Positions 28,767 through 30,914 of a stretch of DNA of 59,051 nt are shown piece after piece (positions within the stretch are counted from its first letter, which is position 1; every line of letters begins with the position of its first letter). This stretch comes from Paracoccaceae bacterium (lineage in GTDB: Bacteria; Pseudomonadota; Alphaproteobacteria; Rhodobacterales; Rhodobacteraceae), in contig PAQV01000018.1 of the NCBI GenBank assembly GCA_002709405.1, positions 1-59,051 of the forward strand. The letters run 5' to 3'. The notes under the pieces are model-generated. The model was given only the letters and a program-made list of their open reading frames with translations. It was not told the origin of the DNA and ran no database searches. Made by a program: the position numbers and the translations under genes.

Positions 28767-29315
28767 CTAGTCGGGCGCGAAACAATCGTCGCGTTCGTCG
28801 CAGGCGTCGCAGGTGGGCGACAGGCACAGCGAAAAGGCCGCGTCGGAACAGATCTGGCGGTAGAAGAACTTCTTCCAGCGCATGTTCTGCACATTGGCCG
28901 CCGCAAGGCCCGGCAGGTGACGGCGGATCAGACCGGACAGCGCCGAGCGGTCCGGCAGTCCCATGTCCTGCCACAGGTGGTGCGGCTCCATCGAGCGGCG
29001 GGCCAGGATGGCGGCCAGCCAGCGGGCTTCATCCGTGGCCGCCCCGCCCTTCCACAGGACCAGCGTGAAGATCGCGCGCTGGTCGTCGGGAACCGGCGGC
29101 GCGGGCAGGTCAAGATCGGGCAGCGTGGCCCCCGGAACCCAGCGGTCGCGCAGACCGGCAATATCCGCCCCCGACAGCCCAAGCCGTTCGGTCAGCAGGC
29201 CAAGACCGGCGTCGCGTTCGGCAAGGGCGTGATCGAGGATGCAGCAAAAGTCCGACACGGTGACCATCAATGGAGTTGCAGGGACCGGATCGGCCAGGTC
29301 AATCAAGGGGCGCAT
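28767..29315 (-). CDS. nifQ: NifQ, molybdenum donor for FeMo-co synthesis
   Basis: 182 aa from the ATG at 29315, which overlaps fdxB by 17 bp; in-frame ATGs at 29348 and 29267 are alternatives and none has a strong ribosome-binding site. The C-terminal NMRWKKFFYRQIC and the CX4CX2CX5C motif (CLSPTCDACDERDDC) are diagnostic. NifQ carries a Mo-Fe-S cluster to NifEN. Confidence 0.93.
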   Translation of the reverse strand: MRPLIDLADPVPATPLMVTVSDFCCILDHALAERDAGLGLLTERLGLSGADIAGLRDRWVPGATLPDLDLPAPPVPDDQRAIFTLVLWKGGAATDEARWLAAILARRSMEPHHLWQDMGLPDRSALSGLIRRHLPGLAAANVQNMRWKKFFYRQICSDAAFSLCLSPTCDACDERDDCFAPD

Positions 29316-29604
29316 GGGTCTGGCAATCTGCAGGGCAGACCCGGGCACAGGCGCCGCACCCGATGCAATTGTCCGGTTCCGTCAGGGACATGACCGACTT
29401 TTCGATCTCGTCCTCGACATCCTCGTATTCCTCGGTGCCGGTCTGGACCAGGTCACCGTCCTCGGTGATCCCGAACAGGGTCATCACGTCCCGGCCACAG
29501 ACCTTGTAGCACCGGCCGCAGCCGATGCACTTGTCGGGGTCGATGGCCATGAGGAACTTGGGCACGTATTCCGCCCCGCCCCGGTTGTATGCTACCCGCG
29601 CCAT
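29299..29604 (-). CDS. fdxB: FdxB, nif-specific 2[4Fe-4S] ferredoxin (ferredoxin III)
   Basis: 101 aa. Two CX2CX2CX3C motifs: C26, C29, C32, C36 and C80, C83, C86, C90. The second set is preceded by a 40-residue acidic insertion (EEYEDVEDEIEKS), typical of FdxB. It probably feeds electrons to nitrogenase or to cofactor assembly. It starts 4 bp after the DUF683 gene. Confidence 0.94.
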   Translation of the reverse strand: MARVAYNRGGAEYVPKFLMAIDPDKCIGCGRCYKVCGRDVMTLFGITEDGDLVQTGTEEYEDVEDEIEKSVMSLTEPDNCIGCGACARVCPADCQTHAPLD

Positions 29605-29608
29605 CGGA

Positions 29609-29812
29609 TCAGGCCTCGGCCTTCTTGGCCGCTTTCAGCTCGCGGCGGGCGGCGGTCAGATCCTTGTAGACCTCGAAGGTGGCCTGGGCGACTTCGGGGA
29701 TCTTTTCCCAGTCGACCGGCAGTTCCTCGGCCAGGTCGTGCAGGTTCATCTTGGCGTCGGTCGCGCGCATCGACAGTTTCTTCACGCGCTTTTCAAGCTC
29801 TTCCATGCTCAT
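29609..29812 (-). CDS. DUF683 (CCE_0567/Rop-like) nif-associated small protein
   Basis: 67 aa, almost wholly helical (MEELEKRVKKLSMRATDAKMNLHDLAEELP), matching the helical-hairpin family always found beside nifX and the DUF269 gene. Function unknown. An ATG at 29806 is an alternative start. The ATG at 29812 overlaps the stop of the upstream 48-codon ORF (ATGA). Confidence 0.9.
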   Translation of the reverse strand: MSMEELEKRVKKLSMRATDAKMNLHDLAEELPVDWEKIPEVAQATFEVYKDLTAARRELKAAKKAEA

Positions 29813-29955
29813 GGTTTCGTCCTCGGGAGCGGGTTTTGGGCGGGTTTCGGGCTGGCGCGCAGGTGGCGCGACAGGGCGGTGCGGCCGGTGGAGGGTTTCA
29901 GGACCACCGGCGGGATCGGCTTGCGCGCGGGGCGCAGGGGCTGGATCCGGACCAT
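29809..29955 (-). CDS. Putative 48-aa Pro/Arg-rich small protein
   Basis: A short frame filling the gap between the DUF269 gene and the DUF683 gene. It starts 3 bp after the DUF269 stop and its TGA overlaps the next ATG (ATGA), the same coupling as its neighbours. It begins MVRIQPLRPARKPIPPVV; Pro and Arg dominate. About 43 of 48 codons end in G or C, and preferred codons (CTG, CGC, GCC, ATC, ACC) fill the first 35, as in real genes here. No ribosome-binding site is visible and no family was recognised. It could instead be spacer sequence. Confidence 0.5.
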   Translation of the reverse strand: MVRIQPLRPARKPIPPVVLKPSTGRTALSRHLRASPKPAQNPLPRTKP

Positions 29956-29958
29956 GGA

Positions 29959-30432
29959 TCAGGCCCGGGCAGCGTCGGGATAGGTGTCGATGACCGAGGC
30001 CGCGCCATCGACCATCTTCTCGCCCGCTTCGGCCAGCTTGGCCCAGCTTTCAAAGCCGAACCGGTGGATGTCGCGCAGGTGCTTGGACACCACGACCAGC
30101 TTGCCGGCGATCAGAACGACGCGGCCGAAACCCTCGTGGCTCATCTTCTGCATCTGGCTGGCCATGCAGCCGGTCTTCTTCTCTATCATCAGGCCCACGG
30201 CATCGTAGAACTTGCCCACGCGCCACATGACATCGGGATCGGGGTCGCCGATGATCGGAATGTCGCGGCGCTCTTCCTTGGTGACGATGAATTCGTCCAT
30301 CAGGTCGGCATCGGACTTGCCGTCCCACTGGCCATAGCTGTCCTCGGCCCGGATCACGGCCGCCAGCTGGGTCAGGAAGTCGCTTTCGACCATCTCGCCG
30401 CCGCGCGGGGCGTCCATTGTTTCAGCGGTCAT
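29959..30432 (-). CDS. NifX-associated protein (DUF269)
   Basis: 157 aa with the family core DSYGQWDGKSDADLM, VTKEERRDIPIIGDPDPDV and KLVVVSKHLRDIHRFGF. DUF269 proteins follow nifX in most alphaproteobacterial nif clusters; the role is unproven. Its ATG overlaps the nifX stop (TGATG). Confidence 0.93.
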   Translation of the reverse strand: MTAETMDAPRGGEMVESDFLTQLAAVIRAEDSYGQWDGKSDADLMDEFIVTKEERRDIPIIGDPDPDVMWRVGKFYDAVGLMIEKKTGCMASQMQKMSHEGFGRVVLIAGKLVVVSKHLRDIHRFGFESWAKLAEAGEKMVDGAASVIDTYPDAARA

Positions 30433-30914
30433 CAGACCATCTCCTCTTCGTCGTAATCGTCCATGAAATCGGGCTTTTCGTAGGTGCCCAGGATCTTGCG
30501 CAGGAACGGCGGAGGCGTGCCGTTCAGCATGCCCTGCACCTGCTCCAGCACGGCCTCGATCGGTTCGGCGTCCTTGCGCTTGATCGGGTGGATGCCCGCC
30601 TTGACGACCTTGGCCGCCGAGGGCCCGCCGATGGCCAGCGCGAACAGCAGCGCGCAGCCATCCAGCGCCTCGACCTTGGGCGTGATCTTGTCGTCCTGGT
30701 CGTCGTGCTTGCCCGCCTGCTTGGTCACGTTGTCGAATTCATGCGCCGCGATGAAGCGCGCGCCGGTCTTCCAGACCTCGTAGACCGCGAATTTCTTCGC
30801 CGAGCCGAAATGCGCGTTGAGGTTTTCCATGTCATTGGTGGCAATGGCCACGCGCAGGGGCGTCTCGCCCGGGGCCGGCTCTTCGGTATCAATGACGCGT
30901 AGCGTGCGGGACAT
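30432..30914 (-). CDS. nifX: NifX, FeMo-co precursor carrier
   Basis: 160 aa from the ATG at 30914, which lies inside the 3' end of nifN (26-bp overlap). PLRVAIATNDMENLNAHFGSAKKFAVYE is the NifX/NafY cofactor-binding core. NifX shuttles NifB-co or the VK-cluster between NifB and NifEN. The family's C-terminal extension NGTPPPFLRKILG is present. Confidence 0.95.
   Translation of the reverse strand: MSRTLRVIDTEEPAPGETPLRVAIATNDMENLNAHFGSAKKFAVYEVWKTGARFIAAHEFDNVTKQAGKHDDQDDKITPKVEALDGCALLFALAIGGPSAAKVVKAGIHPIKRKDAEPIEAVLEQVQGMLNGTPPPFLRKILGTYEKPDFMDDYDEEEMV

Follow-up and report, generated by a model that had tools for sequence, protein, structure and literature searches.

Within a window of 59,051 nucleotides from a Paracoccaceae bacterium (GenBank assembly GCA_002709405.1, contig PAQV01000018.1), a small open reading frame of the nif block, here termed ORF48, is apparently a real, lineage-limited and undescribed small-protein gene of nif operons, as judged from sequence comparison. 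Selection seems to have maintained it in certain marine and phototrophic bacteria, and relatives of these have lost it. Our computations found its position and its overlapping start and stop codons conserved, its significant copies restricted to the nif locus among the genomes covered, and the gene lost or broken in many related diazotrophs. We lean towards the view that ORF48 is translated and that its product docks onto a partner of the maturation group as an optional adaptor; docking on a Nif maturation protein is suggested by the location of the gene, the charge of its product and a short conserved motif. A new small nitrogenase accessory protein, as proposed in the original prediction, is the favored reading: the part that describes a selected, nif-locus-restricted gene was supported, with the same position in 14/14 intact copies, and the role in nitrogenase function is putative.

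The operon has the order nifX-DUF269-ORF48-DUF683-ferredoxin III (Table 1), and the window also encodes NifE, NifU, NifS, NifV, NifA, RpoN and NifB. Ferredoxin III is followed by a 193-aa gene (positions 28767 to 29348) with a C-terminal cysteine cluster, which we take to be NifQ-like; it had no NCBIfam match at E 1e-10. In excerpts of a study on R. capsulatus, the proteome includes FdxB, a Rop family protein, DUF269 and NifX, and the operon is given as nifENX-rcc03277-rcc03276-fdxB (PMC6925177). A gene list for Rhodovulum tesquicola, likewise taken from an excerpt, contains NifX, the NifX-associated protein, one hypothetical protein and ferredoxin III (PMC9412634); our guess is that this hypothetical protein is probably DUF683.

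Table 1. Coordinates of ORF48, its signals and its neighbors in the window
Feature	Position	Strand	Remarks
nifX (TIGR02663)	30432..30914	-	Acidic C-terminal tail; start at 30914 is a choice inside a longer ORF
NifX-associated protein (DUF269, TIGR02935)	29959..30432	-	Directly upstream of ORF48
ORF48	29809..29955	-	48 codons from ATG to TGA; small, basic, Pro-rich product of 48 aa with core LKPSTGRTALSRHLR; matches no family
CGAGGACG	29818..29825	-	Shine-Dalgarno-like stretch for DUF683, within ORF48 3' end
ATGA	29809..29812	-	ORF48 TGA overlapping DUF683 ATG; same 4-nt overlap in 13/14 intact copies
DUF683/Rop-like (PF05082) gene	29609..29812	-	Directly downstream of ORF48; E 6.7e-28
Ferredoxin III, nif-specific (TIGR02936; fdxB of the original prediction)	29299..29604	-	E 2.4e-40

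The predicted position of ORF48 was borne out, with a spacing of 3 nt from the DUF269 stop (TGA-TCC-ATG) and the ATGA overlap as described. On the claim of gene-like codon use, third-position GC (0.90) resembles that of DUF269 (0.87); in full, GC by codon position was 0.69/0.60/0.90 for ORF48 and 0.64/0.40/0.87 for DUF269, and the higher second-position value is as expected of a Pro-rich protein. In one genome, however, such a layout is weak evidence, because shuffled gaps often give such an ORF. Among 20,000 dinucleotide shuffles of the 146-nt DUF269-DUF683 gap, 5,286 (26%) contained a comparable ORF (ATG or GTG, at least 40 codons, start no more than 20 nt from the gap start), and 1,734 (9%) contained one also ending on the ATGA overlap. 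At least one forward frame was fully open in 4,920 of 5,000 shuffles. It is conservation among homologues that places ORF48 well beyond chance; the single-genome argument was weak, and its conclusion was largely right.

Homologues were sought with DUF269 (within the genus also DUF683) as anchor, and the gap was read in each of the related loci and profile hits. ORF48 occurs with nif genes: tblastn and gap reading yielded 14 distinct intact homologues, all from Rhodobacterales and every one in the gap between DUF269 and DUF683. Besides the window copy, these were from Alloyangia pacifica (two strains), metagenome bin L024, Salipiger pentaromativorans, S. abyssi, Pseudooceanicola nanhaiensis, Tropicimonas isoalkanivorans, Actibacterium ureilyticum, a Frigidibacter bin, Rhodovulum marinum and genomes L117 and L120, together with a divergent copy (L040); L026 and L116, identical over 735 nt, were counted once. 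All 14 start with ATG (in L030, an in-frame GTG lies one codon upstream), the distance to the stop of DUF269 being -1 to +15 nt, and the one copy departing from the 4-nt overlap with DUF683 (L038) overlaps by 11 nt. The majority pattern reads M-I/V-R/Q-I ... P ... LKPxxGRTxxSRxLR, with the common core GRTxxS, and residues M1, I4, P13, G24, R25, T26, S29 and R33 were invariant in the 13 aligned rows.

The check called for in the original prediction, an alignment of this gap across Rhodobacterales with a dN/dS-type test, revealed that the amino acids of ORF48 are under purifying selection across genera, with the Rhodovulum-group pair L045/L120 as an exception. Under the GY codon model, run on 12 of the 14 copies (divergent L040 and L026, a near-copy of L025, were left out), the whole ORF had an omega of 0.17 with F3X4 and 0.29 with F1X4, and residues 2 to 34 had 0.04 and 0.17, next to 0.085 or 0.13 for DUF683 and 0.04 or 0.13 for DUF269 with the same frequency models; since synonymous divergence between rows is ∼0.53 on average, the sizes of these values are rough, and their sign is to be trusted over their size. 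Omega = 1 was rejected, with twice the log-likelihood loss at 97, 57, 144 and 63 (a loss of 28 to 72 units) on the same fixed tree and with the best of five kappa values. pS exceeded pN in 62/66 pairs from the 12 rows and in 84/91 pairs from all 14; the synonymous excess was absent from L045/L120 (omega 1.02), and pS was not greater than pN in 3 further pairs of the 66. Differences by codon position were 0.35, 0.31 and 0.51 in the 13 copies other than L040. The C-terminal tail, which overlaps the DUF683 ribosome-binding stretch, varied at each codon position (0.47, 0.54, 0.58), and its K/R bias may come in part from the Shine-Dalgarno-like stretch lying there.

This pattern bears on the second option of the original prediction, that ORF48 only couples translation, acting as a leader that brings ribosomes from DUF269 to DUF683 while its peptide is inert. 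Such a leader would fit the ATGA overlap, the start close to the DUF269 stop, the Shine-Dalgarno-like stretch for DUF683 within the ORF48 3' end and the ease with which open frames arise at this base composition. However, coupling requires an open frame and not a conserved core, and the amino acid constraint peaked in the core (omega 0.04 to 0.17), which lies apart from the ribosome site of DUF683. Moreover, DUF683 is still present in 20 loci that lack ORF48, at a distance from DUF269 of 1 to 24 nt in 8 and 34 to 90 nt in 12, so that a leader ORF is not needed. The option is therefore disfavored, and we consider it unlikely.

As to initiation, Shine-Dalgarno-like pairing was -5.3 kcal/mol on average upstream of the ORF48 copies (range, -1.7 to -11.7) and -6.0 kcal/mol on average upstream of DUF683. 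Some homologues may possess their own ribosome site. In the window, the pairing of ORF48 (-2.5 kcal/mol) equals the local background median, which makes re-initiation from DUF269 a fair guess there: ribosomes ending DUF269 would initiate again a few bases on, at the ATG of ORF48, and those ending ORF48 would pass to DUF683 via ATGA.

Openness of the frame tells little on its own, given that the forward +2 frame over ORF48 was stop-free in 11/13 rows; the forward +1 frame had stops in 13/13. An antisense gene was rejected, as all three antisense frames contain stops in some of the 13 rows, although this is a weak test. Fusion with DUF269, or read-through from it, was rejected as well, because the frame relation is not conserved among copies (the distance from the stop of DUF269 to the ORF48 start is -1, 3, 4, 5, 7 or 15 nt). 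It is also highly improbable that the region is a conserved RNA or DNA element, such as a riboswitch or processing site, over which a reading frame is open by accident. The GRT block does contain several invariant nucleotides in the nucleotide alignment (11 of the 14 copies), but variation is greatest at the third codon position, no Rfam match reached the gathering score between positions 29200 and 31000, and the consensus fold amounts to only -0.67 kcal/mol and has 6 pairs, of which 2 show changes on both sides. On the Rfam scan and this fold, an RNA element was rejected.

The distribution of ORF48 was placed on a tree of DUF269 and ferredoxin from 47 Rhodobacterales loci and 5 outgroup loci of other orders, from which same-genome repeats were omitted by handle or by eye (e.g., L006 to L009, L011, L012, L015, L017, L026 and L046; further, L074 to L086, L118, L121, L122, L124 to L126, L129, L130 and L133 to L136). 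ORF48 was intact in 14 of the 47 loci, frameshifted in 2 (near the start in L028, in the first half in L043) and absent from 31, of which 20 keep DUF683 and 11 gave no DUF683 hit. In these 11 (L013, L014, L016, L018 to L020, L044, L050, L123, L131 and L132), the hit was lacking between DUF269 and ferredoxin III, and ferredoxin III lay ∼200 nt or less after DUF269. With the outgroups scored as absent, at least 8 changes are needed on the tree to account for intact or broken copies versus the rest. ORF48 is absent from a congener (G001) and from two R. capsulatus loci, in which DUF683 follows 1 nt after DUF269, and within the genus of Alloyangia pacifica DSM 26894, 5/20 genomes have it. The gaps of L028, L043, L129 and L130 (Rhodovulum, Tropicimonas) resemble stages of ORF48 loss: some copies are frameshifted, and what may be short remnants terminate at the same ATGA. 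Frameshifts or stops in orthologous gaps, named in the original prediction as evidence against the gene, gave a mixed outcome: the frameshifted and absent cases mean that ORF48 is dispensable in many relatives and not that it is unreal. Since many diazotroph relatives lack it, the gene is not generally needed for nitrogen fixation, and its product probably assists the nitrogen-fixing machinery in an optional role.

Loss in relatives raises the question of whether the window copy is itself a decaying remnant that is functionless in this strain. The two frameshifted loci, the possible short remnants in other Rhodovulum loci, the congener without ORF48 and the relaxed L045/L120 pair would be in line with decay; against it, the window frame is intact, all positions invariant elsewhere are present, and the window clusters on the tree with L117 (Alloyangia/Salipiger genus; 99/92 support), which has an intact copy. 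Decay in this strain thus seems quite improbable. The window and G001 (L007, L010) are 80% alike in DUF269 and 71% in DUF683, whereas Alloyangia/Salipiger are closer to the window (85% in DUF269, 82 to 90% in DUF683); together with the tree, these values point to a possible transfer of nif blocks between genera.

A profile search of 38 whole genomes, at least two of which look like duplicates, scored at most 150 candidates per genome and gave strong matches (E 6.7e-6 or better) at the nif locus only, the next best having E 0.0078. No significant second copy was present in the window's own genome (next best, E 0.52). In a class-wide draw of 385 genomes, unsorted for nitrogen fixers and with at most 18 candidates per genome scored, no strong match was found beyond the window's own genome; 101 genomes had a match at E 0.1 or better, mostly over short stretches, the best besides the window's own being 2.7e-4. 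A six-frame motif search of the fetched loci returned the ORF48 copies and two class hits, L094 and L096. Neither was accepted as a copy: the L094 string is antisense to a 208-aa ORF and looks like chance, and the L096 string contains a stop.

The claim that ORF48 matches no known nif protein was confirmed in Pfam, NCBIfam, PHROGs, PDB and Rfam. The window protein and two homologues hit no family in Pfam or NCBIfam (E up to 5), the window protein had no match in PHROGs (E up to 1), and no solved structure in the PDB matched (best E, 0.26); a plasmid collection gave no match either. Titles and abstract openings of papers on DUF683/DUF269, R. capsulatus nifX-orf4-fdxB, small nif proteins, Rop-like proteins and CCE_0567 do not describe ORF48. 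Copies may already exist under "hypothetical protein" accessions.

The ORF48 product is Pro-rich, has a mass of 5.3 kDa and contains 11 K/R and no D/E; all 14 copies have a net charge of +7 to +12. Cysteine occurs in 1/14 copies, which makes an iron-sulfur protein unlikely, and neither Cys nor His is invariant in the 13 rows. AlphaFold2 predicted an extended chain with one helix at residues 27 to 33 (mean pLDDT, 75.7; pTM, 0.25). When DUF269 and ORF48 were modeled as a chain, most of DUF269 folded at high confidence and ORF48 showed no secondary structure, with a pLDDT of about 49 to 66 from 5 alignment rows with ORF48; read by confidence and secondary structure, the model does not support DUF269 as a partner. 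In two further weak tests, aimed at other partners, no DUF683 column split cleanly with ORF48 presence (best mutual information, 0.33 bit), and the acidic tail of NifX did not discriminate, being acidic in carriers and noncarriers. In the 47 loci read, whether or not they carry ORF48, this tail comes after a conserved PPFLRK block; it is only weakly acidic in L014, L019 and L020.

The charge and proline content would also suit a basic peptide with nucleic acid or membrane lipid, and not a Nif protein, as its target. We regard such a binder as unlikely, given that the loci and genomes covered have ORF48 at a single operon position and that it lacks a family match, although neither observation is decisive. 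On the adaptor reading that we prefer, the product would be a largely unfolded, strongly basic peptide whose LKPxxGRTxxSRxLR stretch would form a short helix upon binding and dock on a member of the group that matures the FeMo cofactor. The most plausible candidates are DUF683, NifX or some other acidic surface that the operon provides, and the role of the peptide would be that of an optional adaptor rather than a catalyst. These steps, from peptide to adaptor, are the least certain of the proposed mechanism. More speculatively, and with considerable doubt, ORF48 might be the founder of a new nif adaptor peptide family, largely unfolded, in which GRTxxSRxLR docks DUF683 (or NifX) and tunes cofactor delivery in some Rhodobacterales.

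If true, this last reading would offer a first handle on the role of the uncharacterized DUF683 protein. The fixed place of ORF48 before DUF683 provides a concrete testable pair. Repeated loss supplies natural comparisons of carriers and noncarriers, and a conserved gene without match in the searched family libraries, within an operon of a type that has received much study, implies that nif parts lists may be incomplete for this group.

Among known systems, the closest is DUF683/Rop-like PF05082 itself, which is also very small, belongs to the same operon and lies beside DUF269 in the loci read. In contrast to ORF48, it extends to nif loci far beyond Rhodobacterales and has a matching Pfam model, whereas ORF48 is basic, Pro-rich, predicted to be mostly extended, seen in only some Rhodobacterales and without a model. 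NifT, NifW and NifZ are small, noncatalytic, encoded in nif operons and in some cases dispensable; unlike them, ORF48 matches no Pfam or NCBIfam model. Translationally coupled ORFs with ATGA overlaps are known as well, and ORF48 resembles them in its position and start/stop overlap but differs in that its amino acid sequence itself is constrained.
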